The position numbers and the translations under genes were made by a program. Under the pieces are notes generated by a model that did not search any database, had not been told where the DNA came from, and saw only the letters and a list, made by a program, of their open reading frames with translations. From Rhytidiadelphus loreus (lineage: Eukaryota; Streptophyta; Bryopsida; Hypnales; Hylocomiaceae), in assembly GCA_947034895.1 (NCBI GenBank), contig OX344762.1, positions 31,662,760-31,726,759 on the forward strand: a stretch of 64,000 bases of DNA. The letters are read 5' to 3'. Below, piece after piece: positions 18,470 through 54,923 of this stretch. The stretch's first letter is position 1. Every line of letters starts with the position of its first letter.

Positions 18470-18545
18470 CAGGGTTGTCATACCGGACGGACGTCCGGTT
18501 TGCCTGTCTGATAGAGGTCTCGCCCGTCCGATGTGGTCAACACTA
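18470..18545. repeat. Element A left terminus: 21-bp TIR and GC-rich subterminal sequence
   Basis: After the TIR comes GGACGTCCGGTTTGCC and CTCGCCCGTCCGATG, which echoes the right end (CGTCCCCGCCCTG units at 54822-54853). These are likely transposase-binding sites by analogy with other hATs; this is inference. Confidence 0.85.
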
Positions 18546-18554
18546 AAGTTGACT

Positions 18555-18960
18555 TTTTTTAACCCTTAAAGGACCGTCACTATGTTTTCACCAAAAACTC
18601 TCTAAAACTGTCATTTCTAGTACAACTACCAAAATTTTGATAAAAAACTTTTTTTGACATATCTAACCGTAGGATGTTGTATTATATAGTATCAAAAACT
18701 TGTGGTAAAAATTTCAGACATTTCCACCGGGTGGATTGCAAGATATAAGCATTCAAAATTTCAAATTAACTAAAATCATTTTTTTGACCCTGCGAAAAGC
18801 AGGGCAGCTACACTTCACAAGCTCACATTTCTATGAAAAAATGACCTAAATGGTGGTGCTTCTTTGGATTTGTTTTCCTAGACAAGTTGGCCACATGCTT
18901 GAAAAATTTCAGATCATTTGGAATAGTACAACATATAGGAAAAAAATAGTAAGTAGGTAG
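18555..18960. repeat. Dispersed AT-rich repeat family, copy 1 (+)
   Basis: This matches the reverse complement of 60155-60565 over about 400 bp (shared words include GATTGCAAGATAT, TTCAGATCATTTGGAAT and CAACATATAGGAAAAAA). Weaker relatives lie at 38880-39130 and 47010-47230. The family is unclassified and has no coding potential. Confidence 0.7.
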
Positions 18961-19508
18961 TACTAGAGAATGATTAAAAATACTAAATTATTTAAAATTT
19001 AAATATGGAATTGAAAATTTACAATTCCAATGGTCGAAATGTTGTAATAATGTATGTACATCCTATAATTTTATTTTTGTCCAAAAATATTGAAAATTGG
19101 ATAAGATAAAGGATGTCAAAGTTTATTTTAGAGCAAGAAATCCAAAACTGCCCGCAAACAGAAAATCCTCATAATCCTCATAATTTTTTACTCATTGATC
19201 AAAACCGAATGATTCTAAGATTTTTGCCTTTTTCTGTATATCAAATTCTAAAAAATCAATTTCAAATCTAATTAGTTGTTTGCTACTTTGTTTACTACAC
19301 ATTCACAAATTCACAGAAGTCATACAATTGTTTTGATGGAAGAAAGACCAAATTGCATATTACAAGATTTTCACCATATGTCCGTATCTTTATGTATGAA
19401 ATGTGTAGCAACCATGAAATACACATGCTTGATGCTCTTCTAACCAAAAATGTGTGGTCTGCCTATAAAACTATCACATACTAGAGCTCAAAAAGTAAAA
19501 ACAATATA
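18961..19508. other. AT-rich 3' flank of the element A kinase gene
   Basis: No coding signal is seen. It probably contains the kinase 3' untranslated region and polyadenylation sites, which I cannot place. Confidence 0.4.
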
Positions 19509-20601
19509 TTATGTACAATAACAACAGTCGGGCATAGTCCAACAGTGAGGTGCCTTCCTCAAAGTGTCTAGAACATCAGGCACAGATGCCCTCTCGCCTA
19601 CATCTATTTTCTGGAGGCTCAGTAGTTGAATCCTCAAATGCTGATACTGCTCTGGGTTTTTGGTCGTAAAATACTTTGGATCCCACTCTTTTTTCCAAAT
19701 TTGATATGCTATCCATCCAGTTGCATATGCATTAGCAGCCATGGAGTAGAAGTGTTTTTTCAGCATGACTTCAAGTGAGGTCTCTGACCCCTTCTCTCCA
19801 TACATGTAGAACAACTCAGGGGCTGCATGTTTTCGTTGTTTTTTCTCCCGTTGGAGCTCCTCCATGGTTCGATAACCATACCTTGATGGCTCCTTCTCTA
19901 CAACTCGACCAGAAAGCCCCCAATCGCAAATCCCAATGTACACTGTGTTTTCTTTCCATTCATCAAAATGGAGCAAAACGTTGGATGGAGTAATGTCATT
20001 GTGTAAATATTTTGCTTCATGGCATTTTCCCACTATGACAAGCAATGATAAAGCCAAATTCACGCGGTTTTGGCAATAAGTTGCAACCCAACCGAGTTCT
20101 TCCTACGTCAACCCTGCATCATGTTGTCTCGTGATGTCATCCACATCCAACGATTCACTCACTTTTGAGTTGTACTTGGCCAAGAAAGAAATCAAAGACC
20201 CTCCATTCTACCATAGCGTATAGCCTTCCATTGTTTTTGGATGGATGTACGCAAGTCTTACGATACTAGGATGTATCACTGGACACCCCTCTGCCTCGCT
20301 TACAATAGCTTGGCGCTTCTCCTTCTCATTTGAGGTCTTCAAAGTCTTCCCGGCAAAGCAAATCCAACTGGGAATGCTTTGTAGTCTTGTGAGCACCACC
20401 TTCCTCACAGTCCCATATGATCCAGTCATAGTTTGATTCAGCATGGGATTCACTTTCACGCAACTTTCCAATCACTTGAATGTTCCGCTCACACAATGAG
20501 CTCGTATTTGGTCTTCAAGCGTCGCTTTCCATGGTGCTTGTTTCTTTCTACGCGAAGAAGAAAATTGTTGGGAGAACTTCTGAATTTTGTACAATCTTGA
20601 A
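19509..20601 (-). pseudogene. Element A kinase-like gene, 3' part (kinase domain), separated from its 5' part by element B
   Basis: On the minus strand the frame arriving from 42954 continues at 20593 without a shift and encodes a kinase-like domain. It has a glycine-rich loop GSYGTVRKV, a VAIK-like lysine in CFAGKTLK, catalytic-loop HNDITPSN (HRD changed to HND; Asp and Asn kept, about 19980-20008), DWG in place of DFG (CDWGLSG, about 19911-19931) and an AAPELFYMYG motif matching APE. In-frame stops sit at 20474-20472 (TGA), 20210-20208 (TAG, where the element B relative has Trp in TLWWNGG) and 20105-20103 (TAG). It is dead through both insertion and nonsense changes. Its intact-order relative is at 32625-34217. 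Confidence 0.9.
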
Positions 20602-20788
20602 CAGGGTTGTCTTGTCTGATATATTTTTGGGTTTAGGCGTCGTGTATGACGTCTAACGTCGCGTGTCGTGTGTCACGAAGTGTCGAGTTTACTTGACATC
20701 GCGTCGCGGAGGGGTAAAAAATTTTATCCCATGGTAAATAGATTTTGCCTACGTGGCAGGGCTTCAGAACTGACGTGGACAGCCAGCG

Positions 20789-21037
20789 TGGGCGACTGCG
20801 AGTGTGGGCGCGTGCAGGTCTGCCTTGGGCGACCTCGGGTGGAAAAATTGAGGCGACTACGGGTGAAGGGGCAACTGCGGGTCTGGGGCGCTAGGGCGAC
20901 TTCGGGTGAAGGGGCGACCGCGGCTTCGGGTACTGAGGGCGACCGCGGGTCCGACAGGTAGGGGCGATTGCGGGTTACAGGGCGACTGCGGGTCGGAGCA
21001 GCAGACAGCGACCGCGTGTTCCAAGGCGACCGCAGGT
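20789..21037. repeat. Element B left subterminal array (GGGCGACTGCGGGT units)
   Basis: About fifteen irregularly spaced variants of GGGCGACTGCGGGT occur in + orientation, just inside the left end. The right end carries the same unit in the opposite orientation (42610-42800), so the two arrays form an inverted pair. They fit multiple transposase-binding sites, but binding is inferred. Confidence 0.85.
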
Positions 21038-21558
21038 TCAGTTTAGGATTTGAGTTTGGCATATTCAGTCTTTGAAGTAACACGTCACATAGGTGTTTTA
21101 TAAGCGCAGAATTAGGTGCTACGTTATATTGGGGTTTACAATTTACAAGTGCAAATAATAGAGCCCATGAAATGTAAATTGGACAAACTTCTCTAATCCC
21201 AAAAATTCACCCAGTATAAGGCCACAATAATAATGTCAACAACGATTATATTAATTAGTCATCGATATTGCTTTGAGGCGGACTTCAAATGTAGCCATAC
21301 TTGCATTGCACTTTTATAACCTCGTTGCAGTCATCACCTAACTGCCTACCAATTAGAACTCAACATATATTTTAAAACCGGTAATCTGTCCCTCACTCTA
21401 ATATGCTCATATGCTTGATGAAGCATTACAAAATCCTTACACATCAGGATGAAGGCTCAAAGCTTGAACTACAAAGATTTGCTACCTAACATATAAGCTA
21501 AAACCTTATAACTATAATTATAACTATAACTATAATTATTGTCTACTTCTCTAGTACT
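21038..21558. other. Transposase 3' flank in element B
   Basis: AT-rich, with a small ATAACTATAATTATAACTA repeat near 21508-21538. No gene is seen; likely the transposase 3' untranslated region. Confidence 0.5.
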
Positions 21559-24500
21559 CTAGTCACCAGGCGTGAATGTGGAATCGCTCGGCACCTCATC
21601 AACATTAGGGTCTGTATCTTTGTAAGACTCTTCGTTGCTCCTGTTGTCGCCCGAGCTTTCGATTTCATCATCTTCCCTTGTTACTACTTCGATTTGTACC
21701 TCACGCTCTACCTCTGAGTTCAGATTTCGAACTTCTGTATCTACACCACTGAACCCTTCAGTTTGCACAAGTCGTTTCGTGAGCCTCAACGCATCCGTAG
21801 TTCCATCCATGTTGGATGCAGGGTGTCGCCCTCCTCTACTTGATTGTCCAACATTCTGGGTGGAACATCCCGCTCCAATGGTACACCGTTGGACAATTTG
21901 AGTGGGTCGTTTAGGATTTCGAGGTCCCCTCTCGTCAACCCTCCTAATACGCCTTTTCTGGCCTCTACTGTTGCGCCCCTGGATTCCTAATGATGATTCG
22001 CCAGGGCCAGACACGGATGAAGGTTGAGTGGGTTGTGGAGCTGAGCCGTGAACCTCTTCATCAATCGTCCGTAGAGCACCTCCACGCACCGGTGGCCTTG
22101 TTGGAAGGGTTGGGATAGACCTCCTCACTGTTGCCACATTTGTAGTCGTCTCTGGATTCAACGACACATTCCGACTTCGATTCATAACATATGCCAATGG
22201 CACATCATCATCATCATCATCTGTAGTAACAGTTGTTCCGAGGGTAGATGCGTTCAATACAACGGGATTTGGTATTCCCTCGTGTACAACTTCATTGACT
22301 TCGATGGCCTCTTCTTCATGTTCGCTTCTCATTGGAACTTGTGCACTGCTTCTTAAATTGCGGGCCATATTTGGAGGCGAACTAGTTGATATTGGAGATC
22401 TAGCTTCTTCCTCTACGGGTGCCATGGGAATAGGTACGCCTTCGTCGTTGTTGTCGGGGGTGCTTTCCCTCCTCAGCGATGCATGTGCCGGCGAAATTGC
22501 ATCCATATTGTGCACGACGTTCTGCGGTGGACTGCGTACAGGTGAATTTCCCGGAGAAACATACCCATCGTCACTAAAATCAAATGTATTCCTGTATATT
22601 GGTCGTACAGGACTATGTGGCGGCCTAACCATTGCATTCCAAGGATTGTTGCACAACCGATCCTCTTCATCCCTGCGGTTCTCGCGTTCTCTCATAAAAT
22701 CTGGAACAACGTCGTCTTCTTCCCCTGAAGACAAAGGCCCATCACGCTTGTCCTCATCGTCTCCATCTGCAAGCATCTGGTCGTAAAAAATGGCTGGGTT
22801 GTGTCCACGTTTTTGACGTTCAAGTTTGTTGTTCACGTAGATATACACCAATGTCTCTGCCTTTGTCGTGGCCAAGCGGTTTCGCACTTTATTGTGCACA
22901 AAGGAATATATGCTCCAATTCCTTTCACACGAAGATGCAGAGCACGTCAAACCGAGAATTCGCTTTGCAATTTTTGGAAGAGCATTGCCCCCCACACGAT
23001 TCCACCATTGATGAGGCAATAATTGACATTCAATGATATCGGGAGCCTCATGTAAAGGATCGAATGCACCTGTCTTCTCTTCAAATTGAGTTAGCTCCTG
23101 CATTGCTTCCACCATTGACACGTTCAATGGTACGCTCAGTTTTCGTATGACTCGATTCAAAGCTCCCTTCGCGTAGCCATTGTTATGAATAGCCTCCACG
23201 TCACTCAAGTATGGATTTAGTAGTGCCCCCGCATAGTGTAGGTCAGTAATCATCAACTTCCAGCGAGCATCAAATTGTTTCTCATATCGTGTTGCCACCA
23301 CTGGATCAAGGAAAAATGGAGCATTCTTGAGAGAATAAATGTGCTCCTTCAAGGCTGTCATCATTACTAAAGCTTTCGGCATTGCCGGGACTTTTCCATC
23401 AAAATGACGAAGACAAAGCAACACGGGCTCTACCATATGGAGGAAATTGTCGCACTGAACCCAGAACTCTTCTGAACGGATATCTTGCCTTGCAAGTTTG
23501 GCCTTGCCCATAATGAAATGTCCATTTTTGCGGTTTTGCAAACTCAACTCGAACGTCATGTATGTCTCATCCAGTGTCACGTTGTGCACTGCTTGCTTGC
23601 AGTCTACCAAATGATCAATCATCAAGAAATTTGTGGCAAAACGTGTTTTGCTTGGAAGTCTCAACACTTTGTTTGGTGAAAATCTCCGAAACAACGCCAA
23701 AGTATGTTGGTATTTCTTGATGAACTTCACAATTGATGAAGCCTTTTTTACCAACTCCTTTACTCTCTGATCCTTTCCCCAGTCTTCTAAGAGTAAGTCC
23801 AAAATGTGTGCCGCACAACCCTGCCTATAAATGTGAGGGTACCTTTCTTCCAACCTTGCCATCGCCCCCGTCATGACTGCAGCATTGTCCGTACACAATT
23901 GCACAACGTTGGTAGGCCCAACTTCCTCAATGTATCGTGCCATCGTCTTAGTCGTGTAAGATATATCCTTCTTCTCCCCAGTACTATCCACTGATCCCAA
24001 AAAGACATCCCCGGCGGGACACACCAACATCATATTTAGTAATGGCCGCGAATTAGTATCGGACCAACCATCTGAACAAATTGTCGCTCCATACTGACTT
24101 ATTGAAACCCTCGTCCGCTCCGAGACCATAGCTTCAACCGATGCCTTCTTAACATCTATCATTTTCGTGCAAATCGCATTATACGGTGGCGGTTGGTACA
24201 CGAATCCAGCTGTTGCAGTTTGTTTAACAACATTCACGAAGGCCGGGTGGCGCACAACATTAAATGAAATGTTCGCCTCGTAAAAGAAAGAAGCCCACAA
24301 CCTATCCAACTCTTGTCTGCGGCCCGTCTGTAATGATTCATCCATGTTTCTTTGCCGAGAAACAGATGGCATGTTCCTCCTTCTCTCAAGCATTGTTCCA
24401 GTAGAATCTACTGAATCAGGCGTAGGATTTGGTCTTGCATTTGATTCAAAGGGATTGAGAGACCCTTCTTCTTCGACATCCAACGCAGGTGCGACAATAG

Positions 24501-24837
24501 ACTCTGCAACATTAACTGGTGCATCATGTCTAGCCGGTGCCTCATACATCTCTTCGTAACTCATGGACCTTGGAACTTGCCCCTCACCAGTCCGAAACTT
24601 TTCTCGTACAATTCTAGGGATCTCCTTACAACGCTCCGATGTAGTCGAGCCGCCATAGCCAAAGTGAATCAATGCTCTCTTTCGTACAAATGCTTTGCTC
24701 CACCCACAAAACACGCATTTTCGAGCATGGGGGGAATTATCAATTGGGGTACACGGTACTAGCCAAGGGTCCCAATCCTTTGTGGACCTCCGCGTATCAT
24801 TCATGGTCCCCCCCCTCCCAACACCTTGTCCAGCCAT
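21559..24837 (-). CDS. Element B hAT-family transposase (BED-like zinc finger, DUF659, hAT-C), intact
   Basis: A single uninterrupted frame of about 1,092 codons from ATG at 24837 (MAGQG...); the open frame extends further upstream but a TATA box at 25066-25072 favours this start. Domains in order: BED-like finger (CVFCGW...RALIHFGYG, about 24640-24720), DUF659/RNase H-like core with CSDGWSD (about 24058-24087) and CTDNAAVM (about 23875-23902), and the C-terminal dimerisation/catalytic segment ASSCERNWSIYSFVHNKVRN (about 22880-22940). These supply the D, D and E of hAT enzymes. A long acidic, low-complexity tail of ~350 residues after hAT-C is unusual for the family. It presumably excises and inserts element B and possibly relatives. 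This is the only intact transposase in the window. Confidence 0.95.
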   Translation of the reverse strand: MAGQGVGRGGTMNDTRRSTKDWDPWLVPCTPIDNSPHARKCVFCGWSKAFVRKRALIHFGYGGSTTSERCKEIPRIVREKFRTGEGQVPRSMSYEEMYEAPARHDAPVNVAESIVAPALDVEEEGSLNPFESNARPNPTPDSVDSTGTMLERRRNMPSVSRQRNMDESLQTGRRQELDRLWASFFYEANISFNVVRHPAFVNVVKQTATAGFVYQPPPYNAICTKMIDVKKASVEAMVSERTRVSISQYGATICSDGWSDTNSRPLLNMMLVCPAGDVFLGSVDSTGEKKDISYTTKTMARYIEEVGPTNVVQLCTDNAAVMTGAMARLEERYPHIYRQGCAAHILDLLLEDWGKDQRVKELVKKASSIVKFIKKYQHTLALFRRFSPNKVLRLPSKTRFATNFLMIDHLVDCKQAVHNVTLDETYMTFELSLQNRKNGHFIMGKAKLARQDIRSEEFWVQCDNFLHMVEPVLLCLRHFDGKVPAMPKALVMMTALKEHIYSLKNAPFFLDPVVATRYEKQFDARWKLMITDLHYAGALLNPYLSDVEAIHNNGYAKGALNRVIRKLSVPLNVSMVEAMQELTQFEEKTGAFDPLHEAPDIIECQLLPHQWWNRVGGNALPKIAKRILGLTCSASSCERNWSIYSFVHNKVRNRLATTKAETLVYIYVNNKLERQKRGHNPAIFYDQMLADGDDEDKRDGPLSSGEEDDVVPDFMRERENRRDEEDRLCNNPWNAMVRPPHSPVRPIYRNTFDFSDDGYVSPGNSPVRSPPQNVVHNMDAISPAHASLRRESTPDNNDEGVPIPMAPVEEEARSPISTSSPPNMARNLRSSAQVPMRSEHEEEAIEVNEVVHEGIPNPVVLNASTLGTTVTTDDDDDDVPLAYVMNRSRNVSLNPETTTNVATVRRSIPTLPTRPPVRGGALRTIDEEVHGSAPQPTQPSSVSGPGESSLGIQGRNSRGQKRRIRRVDERGPRNPKRPTQIVQRCTIGAGCSTQNVGQSSRGGRHPASNMDGTTDALRLTKRLVQTEGFSGVDTEVRNLNSEVEREVQIEVVTREDDEIESSGDNRSNEESYKDTDPNVDEVPSDSTFTPGD

Positions 24838-25049
24838 GTAGTAGATCAACACTGGGTCTTCAAAGAAAATGACTACAATAATCACACTAATACTATGGAA
24901 GATGTAATGACAAAGCAACCCGCTTAGAGTGGTCTTGTAAACCCTTCTAAACACGGTTGTTGCCCTCCAAAGAAGTTAAACGTCCGCATGAAGCCTCTTT
25001 CGAAGGTCCAAGACAAGAGTTTTATCAACGGAGCCAAGGTGATAAAACA

Positions 25050-25360
25050 AGGGGTACCCCTAGAACTTTATACAAGAAAACTCCTTGGACCCGCGGTCGC
25101 CCCATGAGAGAATGCGGGTCCAAAAACCTAAAATCAGTCAGGTGATGGGCGACTGCGGGTCCAAGATTGGGCGACAGCAGGTCCAGGAGTGGGCGACTGC
25201 GGGTCCAGAAGTAGGCGCCACAGGTCCAGTAATGGACGACTGCGGGTCCAGAAACAGGCGACTGTGGGTCAGGAACGGGCGACTGCGGGTCCAGTAATGG
25301 GCGACTGCGGGTCCAGAAACAGGCGACTGCGGATCCAGGAACGGGCGACTGCCATTTGTT
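25050..25360 (-). promoter_or_regulatory. Promoter module of the element B transposase: array, inverted unit, TATA box
   Basis: Reading toward the gene, about ten units of GGACCCGCAGTCGCCC are followed by one unit in the opposite sense (GGGGCGACCGCGGGTCC, about 25085-25108). Then comes TATAAAG (25072-25066 on the minus strand), 230 bases before the ATG at 24837. The array, inverted-unit, TATA order recurs at other genes of this element. Confidence 0.75.
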
Positions 25361-25830
25361 TGGATAATTCTTGCATCCCCTGGGGTAATTTGGGGCCTAT
25401 AATTGAAACTATGAATTCAGAATTTCCACTAAAAAAATAAGCCTTGAAAATAAAAAATTCTAGTGTTTGCCCTGGAGTGGCAATGAGTAGGTCAATTCAC
25501 CCTAGCCGTGACAATTGCTCTGAACTTCAATAACAAGTTCTTTTCCAATCCGTCAAGTTTTTAATTTTTTTTTTTTTTTTAATTCTCTTTTAATTCCGAA
25601 AGTCCGAACTCCCAAGGTCATTTTCCTACCAAAATTCCTAGAATATTCAAGTATTCACAACATTGCAAACATAAATAACCAAAAATTCATATCTATATTT
25701 ATGTACTCTTGTCAAGGAACTACATAGAATTCAATGTGCTTGCATTAAAATGTTCAAAATGGATAATATCCTTTTATATATACATAAGATGGAATATACA
25801 TAGTCCTCAAAAATGTGCTAAAAATGAAAA
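25361..25830. other. Spacer between transposase promoter and GWa 3' end
   Basis: AT-rich with a long T run near 25560-25580. Part of it (25365-25505, TGGGGTAATTTGGGGCC and GGTCAATTCACCCT words) resembles 3950-4100 outside the element, a small shared repeat. No gene seen. Confidence 0.5.
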
Positions 25831-27438
25831 TCATTCAACATCCATTTTGGCCTTTTCTTTGCGGTCATGAGCCTCACGTTCCATCTCATACAAGACTTTC
25901 CTACCTTCCAACTGCAAATTCCTAAGGTATCGGTCATCCTTCCCCAACTTCTTTTCCAACCAAAATTGCTTGTATGATTTTTGGAACTTCAAAAGCGCCT
26001 TCAGTGCATCCCGATGTTCTTCCAATTTTGGATCCAATGACAAAGAAACCCCAAGCTTCTTTTTCAAGTCAACTACTTCCGTAAGAGACAATGCTTGTTT
26101 AGTAGCCACGTCTTTCCAACCACACATTTCTGCAACACGGTCAAGGGGGGCTTTGTTCTTTAATACTTTCAAGGAATTTAATCTTGATCGTGCTTCTTCC
26201 ACCCCTCGCTTCTCCAAGTCTATCTGATCTTCCTCCAGCTTGCATGCTTCCATAATTTTGGCAAGCCGTGATTTCGCAAACTCATTGCTAGAAGAACTAA
26301 ATCCTCCAGTATGCCGAGAAGAGAATCTAAGGTAAAATGCTTCCAAGTCTAAAATCTTTGTTATTTGCGTTGACAAAAGAACTTGCCGACTTTCAAGTTC
26401 AGCACGTAAGCTATTTACAATATCTCCACTCAAAGTTTGCGTTTCTTGATTGCGAAGCTTCTCACATTCTAGATGCTTTTCATCCAACTCATTTAGAAGC
26501 TTCTTGAGTTGAGCTTTGTAAACAACTTTGGTGTCCAACATTACTGTGTCAGGGATAGTTCCATCTTCAACAAATTCCTCACTTCGGTACATGTCATCAA
26601 CACAATCCAATTGGAACAAAGAAGGCTTCACATCTTCTTCTGTTTCCATCTCTGTCCAAAAAACATCATCTTCTGCTTCTTGCATGCATGCAAGCACATA
26701 CTGCAAAACTTCGTCTTCTTTAGTGCGAGGGACTGTAATCGGATTCACCATAGCAAGAGGCAAAATATCAAGATTTTGTGGTTGCCTAGCTGGTTCACCC
26801 TCTTCTTCCATTCTCGGGGGAGGTACATTTTGTGAAGTAGAAGCCACCATCGCCATGTTTTGGGGCTGCATTGGAGGGTCTTCACCAAGGTTGTCTTCCT
26901 CTCCTGAAGATGAATCAGATGACGTCCAATGAAACTGCTCATCGGGCACTCCCTCCTTCAAGTTTTTCTTCTGGCCTAGCCCTTCACGTGGATTGGCAGA
27001 TAGAGCCGCCCTTGGGATGTCTTTTGTCGGTGGAAGGCGAGCATGCTTCACTCCCTTGATTGAACTCCAATCCACGCTTCGAAACAAAATGAGTTCCGCA
27101 TACACCATTGCACATATGTAATACGGGACTTCGCTCCTGGGCACTGAATATGTGCCATACAAGTATCGATAAATTTCGATACAACGTTGCACAAATGCAT
27201 CATTACGGCATGGATGCAAATTGGCCGTATTGTTGCGCCGATTCGTGTAGTGCCGATGATAGGGGAATAATTTGTCGATGTGGCACCACCCCACGAAGGA
27301 CTTACAAGTCTTGGCGGTCCAGTGGCCCGTAATTCGATCCCAACCTCGGTAGGCCACACACGCTGGGTCCAAAAGGATGCGTCGTTGCCTAGGGTGCATG
27401 GCTCCTTTTGCCTTGGTCTTCTTCTTGTGGTCCGCCAT
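25831..27438 (-). CDS. GWa: GW/WCHI-domain protein with coiled-coil C-terminus, function unknown
   Basis: An intact frame of about 535 codons from ATG at 27438 (MADHKK). A basic N-terminus leads into an unrecognised ~110-residue domain shared with three other genes here: a YRGW start, FVGWCHIDKLFPYHRHY, NNTANL, FVQRCIEIYRYLY and VDWSSIKG (about residues 25-130). It is followed by an acidic stretch with FHWTSSDSSSGEED, then Glu/Lys/Leu-rich helices predicted as coiled coil to the end. No RING finger is present, unlike the GW-RING genes. It lies head-to-tail behind the transposase with its own array promoter. The domain could be DNA-binding (basic, conserved W/C/H), but the C/H spacing is not a known zinc finger. 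I do not recognise a function. Confidence 0.8.
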   Translation of the reverse strand: MADHKKKTKAKGAMHPRQRRILLDPACVAYRGWDRITGHWTAKTCKSFVGWCHIDKLFPYHRHYTNRRNNTANLHPCRNDAFVQRCIEIYRYLYGTYSVPRSEVPYYICAMVYAELILFRSVDWSSIKGVKHARLPPTKDIPRAALSANPREGLGQKKNLKEGVPDEQFHWTSSDSSSGEEDNLGEDPPMQPQNMAMVASTSQNVPPPRMEEEGEPARQPQNLDILPLAMVNPITVPRTKEDEVLQYVLACMQEAEDDVFWTEMETEEDVKPSLFQLDCVDDMYRSEEFVEDGTIPDTVMLDTKVVYKAQLKKLLNELDEKHLECEKLRNQETQTLSGDIVNSLRAELESRQVLLSTQITKILDLEAFYLRFSSRHTGGFSSSSNEFAKSRLAKIMEACKLEEDQIDLEKRGVEEARSRLNSLKVLKNKAPLDRVAEMCGWKDVATKQALSLTEVVDLKKKLGVSLSLDPKLEEHRDALKALLKFQKSYKQFWLEKKLGKDDRYLRNLQLEGRKVLYEMEREAHDRKEKAKMDVE

Positions 27439-27589
27439 TGGAGATGCTCTTGAGATTTGGGGCAAGGAATCTAAACTTAACCCTAAACCGCAAAGTATTA
27501 TCTAGCTAAAGTTAACCCTAAACCACAAAGTATTATCTAGCGATTAGTGAGTGATGGAGTAAAATCAAGAACATGAGCCACATGTAAGT

Positions 27590-43933: not shown

Positions 43934-46300
43934 ATGGCGACACCACCAAGAACCAACAAAGCTGAACGAGACAGGACTCGACTAAGGCAAGGTAACAAAC
44001 ATCGGAAGAGGTTACATGTACTTCGAAACCCCGAAAAACTGGCATTTAGGGGCTGGAATGACGTGCCAGAACCGTGGAGTTTTGAAACTTGCATCACTTA
44101 CATAGAATGGTGCCACATTGACAAGGCCTTCCCTGAAGAGCGACACAACTACCACCGCCGATTTCATAAAGCAAATTTGAAACACTGCATCGATGAGGCT
44201 TTTAAACAAAGATGCATCGAAGTATACCAAGTGTTATACAAAAAACCCACTGTGAAAAGGAATGAAATTCACCTTTTCATTGCACGAGGTGTACATGCGG
44301 AGGTGAGATTGAACAAGCGGGTGGATTGGTCCACTTTGAAGGGCACGCCAACCACAGCAGATGGTATCAAGATACCAACACCAGCAAATGGAATGATTCC
44401 AAGGGGGGTTATGAGATATCCCGAAGGAGGGCTGGGCAGGGTCATCACACGTATTGAGCCGCCTGACACATATGAGACGGCGGATTCTACTACTGACGAT
44501 GACTCTGATGGATCTCATGTTGTGGTGGAATTAACCCCCAGAGGACAACAACGTGCACAAAGGAGAAGGGTGCAACATGCACCTCGTGAACAACTTCCAG
44601 AACCAAATATTCGTGTAGAGGTCCAGGGCCCCGTTGAACCAGTACTTGGAGTTGCTCAAGCGCAATTCCAAGCACCTGATGAACCAACTCTTGGAGTTGT
44701 TGATGTCATGGCTGCTGCAGACACCATACAAAGCTTGAGGGTGCAGTTACAAGACCGAGGTGATGAACTACATTCTCTATATGAAGATGTGGGCAAGTTA
44801 CGAGAAGACATCACGCTCAAAGACAGAGTAATTGCTCAACAAGCACGTGACATAGAGGAGCTTCGGCAAGCTCTACAAGCAACACAAATGATGAACGAAG
44901 GTCAAGATCCATGAGGACATGCACAAGGACCTCCTCGGGATTCTCAAATTCCGTTTCAAAATGCTCCAGGTGATGCTGCCATGTCTACACAAGAAGATTC
45001 ATTGGCCTTTCCCGAAGTAATTGCCACCGGCAACGTACCAATGCAGACTGAAGTTCGGGGCATGGTTATGGACAACAACCTTGAGCTCAACAACTTGCGA
45101 GGCGAAAATCAAACATTACAAAATCGTTTGCATACCTTGGTGGAGCAGTACTACCAGTGGAAGTTGGCATGCGTGTTCACCGTTGACAAGACACGACAAC
45201 TGGTAGCAGAGTTCAAGAAATTGGACCACTACTACAGTGAGCACAATCAAGAAAGGGTGTTTGGCTTGACTTCATGGGCCCTTGTGGATGATCTTTTCAG
45301 TCCCAACATGGCAATCATTGAGCTTGATGGTGGAAAAACAATCATTGATTGGTCCAAACACAATTGGGATTTCAAAAACCAACTTGGGTCGAAGGTCGAC
45401 TACAAAGGCAACCCGTTGTTGGAGTGGCCAAATCCTTCAAGTTTTGTGCACGACGGGACCACATGTCCCATTTGTATGAATCCATTTGGCCCTGAAGGTG
45501 GAATGCAGTTGGGCACGTGCAACCATGTATACCACCCATTTTGCCTCATCAGTTTCATGATTGTTCGTCGTCGGTGCGCAATGTGCAAGGCTCCCTTCCA
45601 CGAGCGCTTGTACGAGTTGTTTGGCTTGGTCCCATACATGCCACCACATTGGGAATACAATGCCACGAATGCCCCAGATCACCGTAGAATGTGGGGAACA
45701 GACTTGGTGTGGAGTTGGAAATTACAAATGACATCGTTGGACAAGACACAAGTTGCTGCTGAATGTGGTTGGGAGACTGACCCCGATCAAATTGTCCAAG
45801 TCTGCCACCATTTGATTCCGATGAAAGACAAGCATAGCCAAGGACGGCGGAATTTTTTCTTTCAATACTTCAATGGACATTGGGACGAGGTTGGACTCAA
45901 GTTTCAATTTGGACCTCACCCTCGGCGATGGTTATGGGGCGTTGATGGAGTTCGAGTCACCGATGACAATGGAATTCATATTGGGGAGGACCCTGACATG
46001 CCCGACCCCGCGGAGCTTGCTCAATTATCGGAATCTGAGTGGAGGGAAACTTTCAGAAACGAAGGGCTGGATTTTTTGCTTGAACAACATAGCCCGGATA
46101 CACGCCGAGCTCTGGAGAGTCTCAAGCAATCACAAATCATGAGGGCCATTCTAGAAGAAGACGGACCAGCGAGGAGAACTCGGTCTGCGGTTCGTAGACT
46201 TCAACTAGGCTCCAACGAAGATTTTCCAATGCAACGCGGCGCACACGACGACGAGGCTGGACCTAGTGGCACTGCAAACAGTCCAATGAACATCGACTGA
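43934..46300 (+). pseudogene. Element A GW-RING gene with one in-frame TGA
   Basis: ATG at 43934 (MATPPR; the longer frame opens with TTG). Basic N-terminus (RLRQGNKHRKR), GW/WCHI domain (FRGWNDVPEPWSFETC, YIEWCHIDKAFPEERHN, HKANLKHC, FKQRCIEVYQVLY, VDWSTLKG), Gln-rich linker and coiled coil. A TGA at 44912-44914 interrupts, and the same frame then continues: coiled coil, LTSWALVDDLF block, RING finger (CPIC, CNHVYHPFC, RRRCAMC, 45464-45587) and a C-terminal region ending in PMNID, matching PMDLN in the element B copy. Full length would be about 788 residues. The matching order over the whole length to 42300-39792 shows a single two-domain gene in both elements. Role unknown; RING suggests ubiquitin ligase activity. 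Confidence 0.88.
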
Positions 46301-48734
46301 GTGCCTTTTTTAGTGTGCTAAACTAGTAATTACTAATTAACAAAGCATGTTTTGCATATACAGTTATAGACTTTGGCACTTATCATTACCGAGGCTTATA
46401 GAATTGCTACTTTGGTAGTTCGGTACTACAAACAGTATTAGACAAAGACTTGTGGATATGCATATTTTATCGTGGAAAAAGTATTGTATAATGTATACTT
46501 TTCAATTTTTGTACTACATGATGCATATGAAATACATATATTCAATTGTTGATTCCTTTGCATAATATGGCATGTGTGATATGTGGATATAATAATGTAC
46601 TCATGGCCTAAGAATAAGTGCATTTCGGATTTTGAGTGTATGAAGGTATATATTCATGTAAATATATATGTATTAATATTATTGTATGTGTATAAAAATT
46701 AAAAAGATATTAACAATTTAACATTAATGTAAATTTTGTTACAAATATATTGATGTTAATGTATGAAGGGATACATTAACCTTTGAATGACTTGATCCAT
46801 CCAAAAATGGTAAAATTTCTTATTTTAGCTTGAATAACAATTAGGTATTTTTATTGCTTAAAACTTTGAATTCTATATCATTTACAGAAATTGCAATTTT
46901 GTTCACGAATGTTTCTAATTGTTATCATTTCTAACTTTCTATTGCAGAAAATCAGCATATAATCATATATGAGGAAAAAGAGGAAAACAATTCAATCACC
47001 CCCCTAATGACATTTTTTCTGTCTAAAAACAATAAAAACTGCCATTTCTACTACGTTGTCCAAGATTCAAAAAAGATTCTATTTTTGAAACTGAACCGTA
47101 GGATCTTGAAATTTACTTGCTTAAAATTATGTGGTTAAAATTTCATGAAGTTAGACCGTACAGATTGAAAGATATGACTATATGAGCATTCACAGTTTAA
47201 AAAACAAGTTTTCTTCAACACTAAACTGCAATTTTAGATGACTTTTATTGCTATTTGTAGAAAAAATGTGTACTATGGAATTTGAATTAAAAATTTATTG
47301 TGTTGAAGACTTGAGTTGGGAGTCTATGAAAAAAAATTCAAAAAATAACAACTTCATTTTCATACTTCAAGAAATTGTCAAGTAGAAGTGTAGAACTGTA
47401 GAAGCACGTTCAAAATTGAAAGAAAAACTAAACAATTAATAGCTCTTAGATGGGATTGAAATACAATAATCCCAATGGTGAGATTGTTCTAGCAAACAAA
47501 CATAACCTTTTAAAAAACCAAAAATCTGAAAATTGCATTCTAAAGATTCAATTTCTTTTGCTGCCCACCGAATTCAATTCTACGCATCTTGTGGTATAAC
47601 TTTGGCTTCCAGGCACCGATTGAAATAAAAATTATATTCACACAAAGCTTATTACATTTTCTATCTTCAAAAAAAGTTTTGCAAAATTAGGATAAAATTT
47701 CAGCCCATAGAAACCTGCCCGAATTCTAAAGTGTCTCCTTAGGGGACAATGGGACTTTAGGGGTTAATTTGAAATTTTGGGGGGAGGTGCAAGTAGTAAT
47801 GGAGGTGAACCAAAAAAAAATCCAATTGCTTATTTTATTTTTCACACAAAAGAAAGCCACATCAAAGTATCAAATAAGTGAAGCAACTTGAAGTCGAATT
47901 CCATCTTGACGTCCTGAACTTGAAGTTGAAACCAAATGAATCCTTTTATGTAATTGATATACAAAATTTATATACATTTTGCTAGTTCCTCCGATAATTT
48001 TTCTTCTTATTTTTTGTTTTTACAATAATTTAGGAATAAAAGTAAAATTATTCTGATTTCTGAAAGGTAAAGGTGGAAATAAAATTATATGAATTACAAA
48101 ATATATATTAGAATAATCCATAATTTGTGTTGTAAGCCTGTAAAGTGTAAAGTTTAAATTAAGAATGTAGGGTGGAATTGTTTTGGGAAAGTTGTATTGT
48201 TGTAAAAATGTTGAAGCATGTAGTCATGTACTCATTTAGCCAACTTGCCATGAAGAATGAATTCATAGAATAACCACCATTTTCTGCCTCCACCATTCAT
48301 CATCCGAAATTCTTATAAGCTAAAATTTGAATAGTCAATATTTGTTATAATTAATTACACACATCCTACTATCCTAAATATAGTAGGATTTTTTTTGGTA
48401 TGCTTCTATAAAAAAATTCAAATACATTCCATACTTGCTCAAATTTTCTGAAATTGTTATCATTAAATACCCCAAATTTCCATACTTGCTCAAATTCTCT
48501 TAAATTTCGTTGAAACATTTCTAAAACCCTTTTTTTTGGAATTCCAAACCCTTTTAGCTTCTATTTTGGAGAACTATAACATTCATCCTTTAAGTCTTCA
48601 ACTTGAATTTTCAAAAACGAGTACCTTGTTTACCATTACAAATCCTAAAACTTCTAGCATCTTATTATATTTGTTTTCTTGAAAGTGTGCAACTTAGTTT
48701 TAATTCTCTAGAAATCCCATTTTTGGGGTGTGGG
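46301..48734. other. AT-rich 3' region of element A, no gene
   Basis: No supported frame. 47010-47230 is a diverged copy of the dispersed repeat at 18555-18960, and 47750-47775 carries the TTTAGGGGTTAA word (inverse of AACCCYTAAAG) found at the boundary of other copies. Otherwise simple AT-rich DNA. Confidence 0.5.
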
Positions 48735-50150
48735 GACTATTTCTCAAGTCCTTGGAGAAGCGAAGAAGACCAAGGGCGATACATGAAGGAGACACATCTT
48801 TCCATGAATTCTCTTTCAACTCAAAAAGTAGTTGGACTTCTTAATACAGCCATTGACTTCAAGAAATTCCCCGAGCTCAAATTAATGGCTGACTGCATTA
48901 ATTGGTTTCCCTCTTTCCCTCTCTCCATGGGAAGGAAGAATCCCATGCTAATTTCAAATCTCAAGGTCAATTCCATTCCCCCCCGTCGTTGGTGGAGAGA
49001 GTTCTTGCATCCGAGGGTCAAGGCGTGAGGGCGGGGACGTCCCGTCAGGGCGGGGACGTCAAGGCGGGGACGTGAGGTCAAGACGGGAACGTGAAGTCAG
49101 GGTGCGGACGTCTGGGCGCGGATTCCAATTCCAATTCCAATTTTGAACCCAGTCTTGAACTCCCTCCTTGAACTCCCTCCAAGCCAAATTTGAACTCCCT
49201 CCAAGGGTTTGCTATCCCCATACCCAAAATAATGAGATGAACCGTTGCCCTTGAATTAAAAAATCACTTAACTAGTATTTCATTTCAATACCCACCCCTC
49301 CTAAGTCCTAAACTTACTTTAGAGTTTAGAGCTCTAGGATCCCATTACACAAATTAGAGGGTGGAGTCTAATGATTGAATATTTGAAATCATAAACAATT
49401 TTGCTTCATTTCATTCCCAAAAACCCAAACCGCTTTGCTATCCCCATACCCAAAATAATGAGATGAACCGTTGCCCTTGAATTAAAAAATCACTTAACTA
49501 GTATTTCATTTCAATACCCACCCCTCCTATTTTACCCATTACAAGAAATTTTGGTTAAAGTCTTTAAGCCCTAAATACTCCTACCCTTTTTTCACGGAAA
49601 AAGCCCCTTCAAGCATATTCTAAAGCATTATGATTTATATTTGATTTAAATCCAAAACCTTGTAGCTTTGTATTTAAAAAATGAAGACTTAAACCAAAAG
49701 CTTGAGAAGTATACGTTGGTAATAGTTTGATTTGTAAACTTCAAATCCAAAATCACAAACACCTTTTCTTAATAAGAATGAAATATAAACTTTGAACTTG
49801 AATTTAAACAATTATGTACCTTGACTTTCATTAGGACTCGAAATCCTTTGGGATTTTAGTTACACAAATTTAGTCTTTCTTGTTTGGAAGTTCAATTTCA
49901 TTTTCTATTTTTATTTTGGGTTCCAACTTGACATGGGTCCTACTTCTCAAGTGCTTGATGAAGGCAAGAACTTGAAGTTTGGCCTCAAGAAGGGAGTGAC
50001 ATGCTTTAATACGTTGTCATTGAACTCAAAAAGTAGTTGGACCTCTTAATGCAGCCATTGACTTGAAGATATTCCCCATGCTCAAATTAAGAGCTGACTA
50101 CATTAGTTGATTCTCCTCTCTCTATGGGAAGGAAGAATCCCACCACTGAA
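48735..50150. repeat. Duplicated upstream region of the element A transposase
   Basis: About 48735-48975 and 49930-50150 are direct copies (CTACTTCTCAAGT, CTCAAAAAGTAGTTGGAC, TATGGGAAGGAAGAATCCC-type words). Each is followed by a GC-rich array, in inverse sense at 49020-49125 (GGGCGGGGACGTC) and forward at 50195-50290. A separate exact duplication of about 93 bp occurs at 49209-49302 and 49434-49527. Confidence 0.8.
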
Positions 50151-50310: not shown

Positions 50311-50554
50311 CTTGTCGGATTGACTTCTTTACATTTGTCATCTTGGCCTCATCATCTTGGACTTCAATTCACTTTGAGCTCCTTGGGAGTCTACTTGGGT
50401 GACAAATGGCCCTAGTTAGCTGTTGAGGTGATGTAAAAGTCAGTTCAAGCAGTTGATTGGCGCTAACTACTATTTTGTCCTTTTCATTTGGTGTAATAGC
50501 CTCTTCTACAGTTCTACCTCCTCCAAGAAAACGTTTGCATTCGTCGTGAACGCA

Positions 50555-53500
50555 ATGGGAAGTCAACGAAAGCAAACAAAAGAATGGGAACCGTGGTATA
50601 ATTTCTCTGAGAACGGGGGAAAGTGAGTTGTGTATTTTGCAATGCAACAATCAGCTATAAACGCGAGCGCGCTTTTTCTCACTTTGGATATGGCACAAAG
50701 TCCGAGAGGTCAATTTGTCGTAATGCAACGCGAGCCGTGCGCCACCGATTTGCAAATTGTGCAAACTTTGTTCCTCAACGATTGAGCCCCGAGGACATGT
50801 ATGAAGGAGAATCAATTCCCACTGGTCCATCAAGAGCAACTCCAGTTGCAAGTTCAAGCCAATCCTTTCAAAACGAAGTGACGGGAGGGGGTTCAGGTGA
50901 CGCCCAAGCTGAAGGGGTTACTCTCCCTGAAGGGAATGATGCAATACAGAGGTCCCAAAGTCTCGCTGCATCAAATTCCACAAGATCTGGGTCATTACTT
51001 CAGCAACGTATGAAGGATGCTTTTAATGTTGCGAAGAGGAAGGAGTTGGATGACAAGTGGGCATCATTTTTTTACGAGGCGAATGTGCCATTTAATGTGG
51101 CAAGAAATCCAGCCTTTATTGAGGCAGTGAGGGCAACCTCAATGGCAAGGTTTGAATACAGTCCACCTTCTTACCATCAGTTCAGGACGAAATTGATTGA
51201 ACCGAAGAGGTTGCAGATCGAGAAGCAAATTGAAACCAAAGTTGGTTTTGCAGTGAAACATTATGGGGTGACAATATGCACTGATGGCTGGGATGACGTG
51301 AACCGGAGGCCTCTAATGAATGTAATGATGTCGTGCCCTATCGGTGATGTATTTTTGGGGGCCATTGACACCACCGGGCAAAAGAAGTCCATGCGCTACA
51401 TAGCAGACCAGATGAAGGTATTCATTGAGAAAGTGGGTTCAAAATACGTGACACAGGTTTGTATGGATAATGCAGCAAATATGCTTGGAGCATTGGATGA
51501 TATCATTCGCACGTATCCACACATTTTCAAGCAGGGGTGCATGGCACATGCTTTGGATCTCATGTTGGAAGATTAGGCCAAAGTACCAGAATTCAAAGAT
51601 TTAATTCAAAGGGCAAGAAGATTGTGCCAATACATTCGGAACCATCACGCGACCATGTCGGTATTCCGGGAGTTGAGTCCGACCCTTCAGTTAGTAGTGC
51701 CTAGTGAAACCCGCTTTGCTTGTAATTTTCTCATGTTGCAGCGATTGGAGAAACTTCGCGGAGTACTGCTGCGGTTAAAAGACCATACGCGCGTTCAAAA
51801 TTACTTTGATGGTCTGCGAGACAGACAAAATGCGGAGCAAGCAGCTACAGCTTCACGTAATGTGGTGTCAACTATCAAAGACGTGGGCTTCTGGCAACGA
51901 TGTGCAAATTACGTGCACATGACTGAAGACGTGTTGAAGGCATTGCGCATATTTGATGGCCGAGAACCAGCTATGGGTCGGGCGTGGCTCGTAATGCACA
52001 ATTTGAAAGCGCATGTGTTTTCTTTAAGAGGGCCACCCTTCAACCTACGAGATGACATAGCCACCACCATGGAGGAGTCTTTCACATCCAGGTGGGACAT
52101 GGTGTTCACGGATGTTCACTATGCTGGGGCCCTTCTAAATTTGTATCTCTTGGATAACGTGGCACTTAGGGCTGATGGAGTTGCACTCCGTGCATTGTAT
52201 CAAGTCATCCGCAAAATGAAAAATGTAGTGGGTGTGGAGTTTAACAACGTGTTGGCGGAATTAACAGAATTCGAGGAGGGCACGGGGTCATACAGTGCAG
52301 CAGAGACACCTGACATCCGAGCGACACAGATGCTTCCTCACCAATGGTGGCACATGGTTGGAGATCGAGCACTATCTAAGATTGCCGTTCGTATCTTGTC
52401 ATTGACGTGTTCAGCATGTTTATGTGAAAGGAATTGGAGTATGTATTCCTTCATCCACAACAAGGTCCGGAATCGGTTAGCCCCCGAGAAGGTTGAATCA
52501 TTGGTATATATTTATACCAATAGCCGTGTACTTCAGCAAAGACCAGGGGCCGATCCTGTTCGTTGGTATGATGCTAATATCCTCTCGGAGGATTCTGATC
52601 CAGATGCCCTTGGCCCCGTTCCAGTGGCTGAACGCAATTGTGAATTTGACGCGATGGTAGCTGAAGAAGAGGAAGAGGCTGATGTAGAAGCTAACCGAGC
52701 ACCCCGAGAATACCGACCAAATCCAGAGTTGTGGAGGGCGGGGGCTAATCACCTTGCAGAAGCTAGAAATTACTACGGAGATGGTCATGAAGTGGAAGAG
52801 GAAGTCCTCCCTGGTCGCTGGGGCCCTTGGGGAGCCGATCCTCGCCGAAGTCCTACACCCATTGGCGATGAAAATGTAGTTGTTTTTGAAGTGCAACCTT
52901 TGTCATCGTCTTCCGAGAGTGATCACCCGGCCGCAGTGGACGCCGATGATGATAATGTTATCTCGAACAATGACGACAACCTCCCTTTGGAAAACGAAGG
53001 GGGAAATGGAAATGGCAGTGAGAATCTGAGGAACAATGCAACTCAGAATACTGAAGGATCCGTTTGCGATCGTGATGGCAATAGGGGACCCAGAGGAGTG
53101 GGGGGCCGCGATAGCAACAAAGTTGTTGGAGGACGCCATGGCCAGAACATTGGAAATACAAGGATGGCACGACCGATCACAAGACATGTTGTGGAGGTTA
53201 ATGCAGTGGGAAGAACGCGTTTTGACCCTGAACATTTAGATCACAATGATGTTTTTGCGTTTACTGACCCGCTTGAAGACGAAGCCCATATACCACCACC
53301 AGTTGCAGTGCATACTATTATTTCTAACCCTTCATCTCCCGCAACTTCGAGTGCTCCTTGTCAACCTTCCGAAGAAGTGCTAGGCTCAGTGGGAAATGTT
53401 GCAATGACGCCTCAAAGCATTTCAAATGTTACAACTGGTGGTAGACACCGTACCGCCCTTCAACCCGCAATTCACCACACTATGGGTGAATATCAACAAG

Positions 53501-54036
53501 GACGTGGAAGGAGTTTCGTCTGTGGAAGAGCAAGAGGTCGTGCAACGATTGGAGGCCATGATATTAGAGGTGGACAAAACAATAACGAAGCGTCGTCATC
53601 GAGGCCCCCTAAACGCCCTCTTCTAGGAATTGGGGTCCGAGATCCGAACGTGGTGATAGAGCCATTTTTGAATACGTATGTCCCAGGACCAACTTTGTCC
53701 ACTCCAACGTATGTCGTTCCTCGAGTACAAGGAGGCCCCATTATAAATTCTGACGTGGAGGACCCTAGAGCTCAACGGCACAAGAGGTTTAAACGTAGTC
53801 GTAGGCATGGTCAAACAGCTGTGGAGCTTCGAAATGAGAACTTGGAAGTGGAAAACCAGTGGACCAGAGACGGTGACGATGGAGAAGATGAACGTGGAAC
53901 TAGTGAAGTTGGTGATGATGAAGACGACCCTGATTGTGATGAGGCACCAACAGATGATGATGTGGTCATTCGAGATGTTGCATTACCAAATCCGGGTACA
54001 CAAGAAGTTCGCAGATCAAGTCGTTTCAACAATTGA
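50555..54036 (+). pseudogene. Element A hAT-family transposase, broken by an early shift and a TAG
   Basis: The ATG at 50555 opens a frame (EWEPWYNF, like DWDPWLVP in element B) that must shift by one base near 50615-50623 to enter the main frame at CVFCNATISYKRERAFSHFG. Domains: BED-like finger, DUF659 with CTDGWDD (about 51275-51295) and CMDNAANM (about 51460-51483), hAT-C with ACLCERNWSMYSFIHNKVRN (about 52413-52470), then a ~500-residue acidic and Gly/Arg-rich tail. A TAG at 51574-51576 stands where element B has the Trp of LLLEDWGK. Order and motifs match the element B enzyme throughout, so they are diverged homologues. Inactive as it stands. Confidence 0.92.
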
Positions 54037-54894
54037 GGGGCACCTGACAGCATCTGTGTTCTGTAGACCTTCATTCATCATGAGTTCAAGACAGTTGCAC
54101 TAATTGAAACATGAAGTAATGAAGATCTACAAGAAGAAGAAGGAGAATCTTAGATAACCAGTAGAAGAGGAGGTGTATCTTGAGAGCAGTATATTCATTT
54201 TGTTGTGAACTTGTTATTGTACTGAACAACGCTTGAAATATAAAAATGTTTTTGGTTATCTAAAATAAAAAAGTTTCCAATTGTGTTTGTAGAATTATCA
54301 CATTTGCCATGCATGAAGATGACATTCATGAGTGTAGTTATATTGTATAGTTTGAATGTTGTAAGTAAGGTGTACTAAATTTATTACTATCCTTGCATTC
54401 ACGTAGAAAAAAACATTCACTACTATCATCTTTGATGCCTTCCGAAGGGCTGAAAATTTGTTATTTAAACATGAAATTCTTTTCACAAAATGATCTCTTT
54501 GCTAATAACATGTGTGCTAAATTTCAAGGCCAGAAGATTTACACATAAAAAGATATTCACAATGTACCAACATGTGTACTTGTGTGGTTCAGAGAAACAA
54601 TTTCAATGCTACCAAGTACCAACTCCCAGAAATTGAGAAATCAAAATTCAACCATGAATTTTTTGGCATGAGATCATGTCTATGTTGATAACATGTGGGT
54701 CAAATTTGAAGTTCAAAGGATTTGCCTATAAAAAGGTACTGGAAATGTTTTTCACCCTATGAAAGCAAGAATTCGTAAATGAAGTACAAAAATTCTCCAA
54801 AAATTCGGATTAAACTGATGCGTCCCCGCCCTGTCCAAGACGTCCGCGCCCTGATTTCAGTGTTGGAAAATTTCAAAAATGAAAGGTGTCCGGA
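54037..54894. other. Right end of element A inside the TIR
   Basis: 3' flank of the transposase, AT-rich, with two array units CGTCCCCGCCCTG and CGTCCGCGCCCTG at 54822-54853 just before the terminus. These mirror the GC-rich subterminal patch of the left end. Confidence 0.6.
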
Positions 54895-54923
54895 CCGTCC
54901 GGTATGACAACCCTGGCTCAAAT
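54895..54923. repeat. Element A right TIR and target duplication
   Basis: 54895-54915 is the perfect inverse of 18470-18490. GCTCAAAT at 54916-54923 repeats 18462-18469. Confidence 0.95.

Follow-up and report, generated by a model that had tools for sequence, protein, structure and literature searches.

Usual hAT elements are a few kilobases long and code for little besides the transposase. Members of the superfamily (Ac, Tam3, DUF659-type hATs) share an 8-bp target site duplication (TSD), a short terminal inverted repeat (TIR) beginning with CAG and a transposase with the hAT dimerisation domain. Accessory genes are described for several other groups of mobile elements, which are characterized below according to the accessible parts of the cited papers. 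VANDAL elements of Arabidopsis, which belong to the MULEs (PMC13317346), carry such genes, including those of the VANC proteins, which perform sequence-specific anti-silencing of VANDALs; short-motif tandem repeats differing between families are found in their non-coding regions (PMC10398659). Giant KDZ, EnSpm and Sola-1 elements of Ectocarpus and other algae exceed 10 kb and possess accessory genes, mostly of unknown function, as well as nested insertions, often fixed among copies (PMC12477816). In rust fungi, TET/JBP hAT7 elements (7-bp TSD) carry a dioxygenase gene with a possible anti-methylation role, and an alpha-kinase gene is carried by IS3EU, which is not a hAT; a RING module is not mentioned for either in the accessible part of this description (PMC12730594). 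Teratorn, Polinton/Maverick, Helitron and Starship are also giant eukaryotic mobile elements with genes (PMC6431247).

The window analyzed here comprises 64,000 nucleotides of Rhytidiadelphus loreus (Bryopsida; contig OX344762.1, positions 31,662,760 to 31,726,759). It contains element A (18470..54915) and, inside the kinase gene of A, element B (20602..42953); elements, duplications, arrays and non-coding blocks are given without strand. Both agree with the hAT superfamily in the TSD, TIR and transposase, and differ from it in their size of 14–22 kb, transposase frames of 1138–1240 aa, conserved kinase and RING genes and short-repeat arrays at the genes. With a probability of about 0.9, they represent a giant hAT class which has a conserved accessory module and moves as one unit. 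Among the papers that could be searched, no giant hAT was found.

The 5' end of A is CAGGGTTGTCATACCGGACGG at 18470, and its reverse complement ends at 54915, which gives a perfect TIR of 21 bp. The TSD GCTCAAAT is read at 18462..18469 and 54916..54923. Without B and one B TSD, the length of A is 14,086 bp. Element B (22,352 bp) starts with CAGGGTTGT at 20602 and finishes with ACAACCCTG at 42953; its perfect TIR is only 9 bp long, and its TSD ATCTTGAA occupies 20594..20601 and 42954..42961. The coordinates, ends and perfect 8-bp TSDs of both elements, as well as the sizes of 14 and 22 kb proposed in the initial annotation, were exact on re-reading.

Chance origin of the ends was rejected, since the genome-search boundaries of the A 5', B 5' and B 3' ends cluster at or near the element ends. 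For the A 5' end, 39 other scored matches (best 40 of 2027 candidates, the window's own included) start at query positions 25–32, the element start being 31. For B, 39 other scored matches start at 14–31 at the 5' end (element start 31; best 40 of 652 candidates, the window's own included), and 39 other main matches stop at 552–563 at the 3' end (element end 554; best 40 of 1420, the window's own included). Most A 3' matches stop at 298–304, ahead of the true end at 316, because the sequence just inside the TIR has diverged between the window's A and its relatives; the 3' ends of the relatives were read directly in the copies.

A search for other copies with these ends had been set in advance as a test of the class. 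Pairing of 40 x 40 scored ends gave at least 23 A and at least seven B end pairs, the window's own included, and 14 of the 23 A pairs span 13.9–15.0 kb. Ten other A copies of the 407-Mb genome, selected for an end spacing of about 14 kb, are 13.95–14.32 kb long and collinear over about 14 kb, with 96.5–98.1% identity in long pieces. Their TSDs are perfect in eight cases, agree in seven of 8 bp in one and are absent in one. The second full-length B copy (B2; 22,729 bp) has the perfect duplication ACGTTAAC on both sides. In six further B pairs, the TSDs are perfect (four pairs) or agree in seven of 8 bp (one) or two of 8 bp (one); copy B3 has lost internal sequence and keeps both ends, and its flanks show no matching TSD. 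Thus the giant gene-carrying class proposed earlier is borne out by the ten A copies and B2, which were compared through their whole length. Assembly of the cargo by separate insertions had been named in advance as a second refuting condition, and here too the outcome favoured the class: the cargo moved as one unit, the copies being collinear over 14 or 22 kb and mostly flanked by private 8-bp duplications.

The position of B differs among the three A copies in which it is inserted: about 2125 in the window (element coordinates) and, in the coordinates of copy A15, about 7035, where ATCTTGAC flanks it on either side, and about 3419, where one junction was read. The initial annotation states that removal of B restores the kinase frame of A. 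Locally it does, and nine of the ten other A copies possess the uninterrupted site with a single ATCTTGAA, but the window's A kinase has more damage (three stops and six gap columns). Similarly, removal of A gives local frame continuity of the Copia reverse transcriptase at the join, but this gene was already decayed, the join reading ...D*PLAQMDVIITFLNG...

The large units could alternatively be in-place composites of separate insertions, or segmental duplications, as the window is itself a nest of insertions and nine of the 23 A spans reach 18–37 kb. The collinearity of the ten A copies, the perfect TSDs of eight of them and of B2 and four more B pairs, and the B target left uninterrupted in nine A copies make this origin highly improbable. 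Both elements have multiplied in one piece, A at about 14 kb and B at about 22 kb. Excision and reinsertion of the entire unit would be performed by the transposase.

The kinase gene of A is located on the minus strand and consists of the 3' part (19511..20601; coordinates from the A21 frame, Pfam Pkinase 4.5e-10 on the open relative P0069) and, beyond B, the 5' part from a probable ATG (42962..43449). It is divergent from the plus-strand RING-finger protein gene (43934..46300; Pfam RING families), which has an in-frame stop at 44912-44914 in the window copy, while its 809-aa frame is open in A9, A15 and A25. The transposase gene (50550..54036, plus strand, start approximate; Pfam DUF659 and Dimer_Tnp_hAT) is interrupted in the window copy by an in-frame stop at 51574-51576; the 1240-aa frame is open in A17. 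In each of the 11 A copies examined, at least one of the three genes is not open, so that no working copy was seen.

Of 741 changes counted in these genes across the 11 copies, 605 are C>T or G>A. Pairwise dN/dS among A copies is 0.59–0.71, which reflects mostly decay after insertion. Copies would later become methylated and then decay. Variants shared among A copies have pN/pS of 0.41 (kinase), 0.80 (RING) and 0.57 (transposase); the values for singletons are 0.84, 0.72 and 0.69, respectively. A frame of 144–196 aa at 7.7–8.3 kb of A (8/11 copies) was not accepted as a gene: array sequence makes up its right part, and no relative was found in B.

The transposase gene of B (21559..24837, minus strand; DUF659 4.3e-35, Dimer_Tnp_hAT 8.5e-5) is open in the window copy. 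The kinase gene (32625..34217, plus strand; Pkinase 1.6e-11) has an in-frame stop at 33576-33578, and the frame of the RING-finger protein gene (39792..42300, minus strand) is broken between 40648 and 40751; the corresponding frames of 536 and 771 aa are open in B2. Two more genes, P0071 (25831..27438, minus strand; 38.8% identity over 152 aa to the A RING protein, no significant Pfam match) and P0072 (36629..38119, plus strand; 44% over 134 aa), are paralogues of the N-terminal domain of the RING protein, P0071 being without the RING. The accessory module therefore includes a kinase and a RING protein in both elements, and B adds the two N-terminal-domain paralogues. The curated Pfam cut-off for RING is barely reached by B (27 of 27 bits) and missed by A. 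A search of NCBIfam with ten frames gave no family, and solved-structure searches with the B transposase, the A21 kinase and the transposase alignment gave no match each.

Each of the three genes has its counterpart in the other element: the kinases match at 28% over 537 columns (E 1e-68), the RING proteins at 35% over 812 (E 2e-153) and the transposases at 41% over 700 (E 0). At four-fold sites in shared residues, 12/53, 31/105 and 36/157 agree, respectively, the chance level being 0.25–0.26. Judging by these sites, synonymous positions between A and B are saturated while all three proteins stay conserved, so the 'cargo' very probably represents a selected module and not captured fragments. 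The initial annotation was right about large non-transposase gene sets, and missed that A and B share accessory genes as distant relatives and that each family has its own promoter-proximal array. Since the accessory genes are the same, the two elements do not carry unrelated cargo but form one family with a conserved module, and they are very probably two old lineages of one giant, self-contained hAT class. On sequence grounds, this common gene set of transposase, kinase and RING protein in distant relatives is what is new here.

Plant genomes contain many kinases and RING proteins. Ordinary hATs could have captured such host genes passively, as Pack-type cargo of no use to the element; capture of genes by plant transposons is documented in the accessible part of one source (PMC13317346). 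However, the same three genes are kept in two lineages with saturated synonymous sites, and no named plant gene is present among the 44 kinase and 22 RING relatives (RING relatives scored among the best 8000 candidates by word sharing), the sole organism name being a 'Bacilli bacterium' MAG. Pack-type cargo consists of fragments of identifiable host genes, usually unselected; here, whole genes are conserved between A and B. Passive capture is accordingly improbable. A viral home for the genes was not supported either: searches of viral contigs gave neither a RING nor a transposase relative.

Conservation extends to a non-coding block (47035..47710 in A, 38302..39069 in B) with 64–77% DNA identity between the elements. 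The presence of a known RNA in these blocks was not supported: Rfam on 18000-61000 gave three matches, each scoring below its gathering threshold and each outside the blocks. No tRNA was found in the window.

Assignment of the conserved class to hATs follows from the 8-bp TSD, the short TIR and the C-terminal dimerisation domain of the transposase. PF05699 and PF04937 occur in all 19 members of alignment A3, among them A and B. In P0070, D346 and E666 are invariant and D285 is nearly invariant; these residues are presumably the D-D-E catalytic triad. The N terminus of the transposase contains a cysteine/histidine-rich stretch visible by eye, with no Pfam match when a BED-type zinc finger was sought. 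In the transposase tree of 29 rows, a branch with 100/100 support separates 20 rows, among which A and B belong to different subclades; long branches outside this group were flagged by the tree program. Nineteen of the 20 rows are 802–1240 aa long, and one has 632 aa. Three Chara rows of 983–1123 aa fall outside, so large size alone is no marker of the group. The KDZ, EnSpm and Sola-1 elements have transposases of other superfamilies, and Teratorn, Polinton/Maverick, Helitron and Starship use other recombinases, whereas the only Pfam families matched by 20 stretches of the window are those of hAT, kinase and RING.

GC-rich short-repeat arrays precede the genes, and their unit differs per family, also in a relative. 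In A, an array of the 21-bp unit CACGTCCCCGCCCTGGCCCGA lies between the divergent kinase and RING genes (43643..43784), and another is in inverted orientation (49024..49111); an array upstream of the transposase is present in other A copies, not in the window's copy. In B, arrays lie in a subterminal position (20852..20950) and upstream of the transposase (25145..25352), P0071 (27754..27827), the kinase (32012..32415), P0072 (35980..36290) and the RING gene, near the 3' end (42520..42799); the array at 30751..31332 has no assigned gene. The motif CGTCCCCGCCC (≤1 mismatch) was counted 13–18 times per copy in five A copies, against 0.06 when one of them was shuffled by single bases; GACCCGCAGTCGCCC has 40 occurrences in B and 0 after shuffling. 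Outside A, the window contains neither motif. A 21-bp array also stands ahead of the RING gene in the MAG contig L029.

Family-specific short tandem motifs in non-coding sequence are thus common to these elements and VANDALs, while the transposase is of hAT and not of Mutator-like type. By this analogy, the accessory proteins would act for the element: a RING-type ubiquitin ligase and the kinase would keep the arrayed promoters active against host silencing, and the shared N-terminal domain would aim them at the family's own arrays. VANDALs would achieve the like through VANC, a different kind of protein. Such an anti-silencing role is advanced tentatively, its chances being clearly below even. 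The accessory proteins could instead serve transposition itself (transposase amount, cell-cycle timing or target choice), with which the A–B conservation of their genes agrees equally well; the arrays could be strong co-expression promoters, and the subterminal ones transposase binding sites. Family-specific arrays ahead of genes fit sequence-specific anti-silencing, as in the accessible part of the VANDAL description (PMC10398659), and a role in transposition is a serious possibility that falls a little short of even odds. An ancient giant hAT class spanning plants and the algae related to them, in which the kinase and multiplied RING/N-domain proteins recognize fast-changing promoter arrays and lift silencing as an independent counterpart of VANDAL/VANC, is rather doubtful.

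A multicopy class of 14–22 kb shows that cut-and-paste hATs cope with very large units. Its conserved kinase and RING genes also show that regulatory enzymes can be retained by a DNA transposon lineage as part of its own gene complement. With family-specific arrays ahead of genes, the way in which the proteins find and activate their own element becomes accessible to direct tests. Nearly all of the 22 RING and 44 kinase relatives are located on short contigs, which suggests that the giant hAT class is wider than this genome and was overlooked because such contigs break the elements up. Among five contig ends, the far end of C1 has TTTAGGG repeats and the start of C4 a degenerate form of them, one has none and two are N; the telomeres are of plant type.

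The initial annotation described two nested hAT transposons, each with its own ends and perfect target duplications, and the coordinates, terminal inverted repeats (TIRs) and both duplications were all found in the window. Element A (18470-54915) has perfect 21-bp TIRs and is flanked at both ends by GCTCAAAT. Element B (20602-42953), inserted within A, has the ends CAGGGTTGT and is flanked on each side by ATCTTGAA. The length of A is 14,086 bp without B, and that of B is 22,352 bp. By their ends, target duplications and transposases both are hAT elements. The insertion site of A is a Copia reverse transcriptase; the claim that removal of A restores its frame holds locally, since the reading runs on across the joined flanks, and does not extend to an intact enzyme, the reverse transcriptase being decayed. 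Direct repeats at 12112-12411 and 57605-57905 are 87-88% alike and would lie ~9 kb apart without A, and may therefore represent the LTR pair of the interrupted Copia element.

A and B each transpose as whole units. The host genome (407 Mb in 489 contigs) was searched with the ends of both elements. Among the best 40 of 2027 candidates for the A 5' end, the other 39 start at query positions 25-32, the element start being position 31. For the A 3' end (best 40 of 463 candidates scored), matches mostly terminate ~12-18 bases before the element end, because the A of the window diverges from its relatives immediately before the TIR; the 3' ends of the relatives were read directly from their sequence. 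For B, the best 40 of 652 (5' end) and of 1420 (3' end) candidates were scored. Pairing of scored ends on the same contig and strand gave, with the window included, at least 23 spans for A (13.9-15.0 kb in 14 cases, 18-37 kb in the other nine) and at least seven for B (22.4-26.0 kb).

A search for further copies with the same ends had been proposed, and ten collinear A copies and a full-length second B copy (B2) were found. The ten A copies, selected for an end spacing near 14 kb, are 13.95-14.32 kb long, and all are collinear with the A of the window, with long aligned pieces 96.5-98.1% identical. Their 8-bp duplications are identical in eight copies, match at 7 of 8 bases in one and are absent in one. 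Three B copies were examined at length; that of the window and B2 (22,729 bp, ACGTTAAC at both sides) are complete, and B3 is internally deleted, with both ends kept and no match between its flanking 8-mers. B3 (C1:73014040, ~13.6 kb) resembles a Ds-type derivative except for this lack of a matching duplication. In six further B pairs the duplication is perfect (4/6) or agrees at 7 of 8 (1/6) or 2 of 8 bases (1/6).

The empty site sought for B exists: a single uninterrupted ATCTTGAA occupies the target in 9/10 other A copies; in the tenth, the exact ATCTTGAA was not found at this position. Nesting has also recurred. At C2:22.3 Mb, B lies inside A at position ~7035 (numbering of copy A15), with ATCTTGAC on both sides and A sequence of ~98% identity on each flank; at C3:68.9 Mb, B lies at ~3419 (same numbering) in the opposite orientation, one junction having been read.

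Protein comparison of the A and B frames revealed three common genes. The first encodes a transposase with a DUF659 and a hAT dimerisation domain. The kinase matches Pkinase above the curated cut-off in both (4.5e-10 in copy A21, 1.6e-11 in B). The RING-finger protein (RING) matches RING families at E ~1e-5, at the cut-off in B and slightly below it in A; of the eight columns which we take to be zinc ligands, seven are invariant across 18 aligned sequences. The kinase and RING genes of A are divergently oriented on either side of a single array region. B has more genes in a different order, including P0071 and P0072, which share only the N-terminal domain with RING. Between open frames of A and B, protein identity is 28% (kinase), 35% (RING) and 41% (transposase core), and agreement at the four-fold degenerate sites of shared residues is 12/53, 31/105 and 36/157, against 25-26% by chance. 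With protein identity kept and four-fold sites near chance, kinase and RING have therefore been under selective constraint for as long as the transposase. A non-coding block (47035-47710 in A, 38302-39069 in B) shows 64-77% DNA identity, has a partial second copy close to the A 5' end (A 135-277) and gave no Rfam matches; possible readings are a cis-acting element and a novel RNA.

Transposase relatives comprise 67 proteins, the majority without a name (source codes ena, lgn, jgi, ncbi); named matches in Vicia, Camellia and Chara have 25-33% identity. A midpoint-rooted tree of 29 rows (A, B and 27 hand-picked relatives) separates a 20-row group by a 100/100 branch, and A and B fall into different subclades of it; long branches were flagged outside this group. 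Within it, 19 rows have 802-1240 aa and one 632 aa. Six rows beyond it have 634-795 aa and three Chara rows 983-1123 aa, so that the group is not defined by length alone. At least 22 RING relatives (35-68% identity; best 8000 candidates by shared words scored) and 44 kinase relatives (25-73%) include no named plant gene. Most sources are read as metagenome or unannotated assemblies. A MAG labelled 'Bacilli bacterium' carries the kinase at 73% and the transposase at 58%, which we read as eukaryotic contamination. Contig CADCWO010000051.1, labelled as an uncultured Synechococcales MAG, encodes a RING relative at 40%, preceded, 212 bp upstream of its ATG, by 8.5 copies of the 21-bp unit CGCGCCCCATTTGGAGACGTC; this gene and array under a cyanobacterial label are likely eukaryotic contamination as well.

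Arrays of GC-rich short tandem units precede several genes by ~150-340 bp, measured to the start codon: in A these genes are RING and kinase, and in B they are transposase, P0071, kinase, P0072 and RING. Such arrays also lie near some element ends. Upstream of the A transposase, motif copies are present at 9.16-9.36 kb in all four other copies inspected and absent in the copy of the window. Motif counts (at most one mismatch) are 13-18 per copy in five A copies and 40 in B; single-base shuffles gave 0.06 (A) and 0 (B), and the window outside A none. Units are family-specific, yet have a CG-rich core in common, as judged by eye. The array at 30751-31332 in B has no assigned gene, and a gene may have been lost here. 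Targets of VANC, the anti-silencing protein of Arabidopsis VANDAL elements, are rapidly diverging tandem repeats (PMC10398659), and the arrays are like them in being tandem repeats that differ between families. By this analogy, the arrays of A and B could serve as anti-silencing targets.

Eleven A copies were compared, ten of them from outside the window. An open kinase frame is present in A15, A17 and A21, an open RING frame in A9, A15 and A25, and an open transposase frame in A17 alone; no copy combines all three. Across the 55 pairs of copies, pooled dN/dS is 0.62 for the kinase, 0.71 for RING and 0.59 for the transposase. C>T and G>A account for 121/159, 172/201 and 312/381 changes, respectively, and an excess of such changes is a signature of methylated, silenced DNA. 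Median dS is 0.024-0.033; the burst of A is therefore fairly recent.

The proposal of giant multi-gene hATs is thus borne out and extended: A and B represent a class of giant hATs in which an accessory module is conserved and arrays accompany the genes. Size, module and arrays are novel for a hAT; in the titles and abstract openings of the open-licence papers listed, preprints excluded, no giant hAT with such genes was found, and an earlier description is possible. The whole word 'hAT' is absent from the main text of a 2019 review of giant eukaryotic transposons (PMC6431247), and giant algal elements are reported as KDZ, EnSpm and Sola-1 (PMC12477816). In rust fungi, TET/JBP genes are found on hAT7 elements and an alpha-kinase on IS3EU elements (PMC12730594); accessory genes, including a kinase, therefore have precedents in other elements.

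Beyond the right end of A, 59900-60700 is ~77% like the A 5' region (~A 86-695), inverted, and is probably a piece of a third related element. An inverted repeat at 2341-2763 has 193-bp arms, 93% complementary, and a 37-base spacer.
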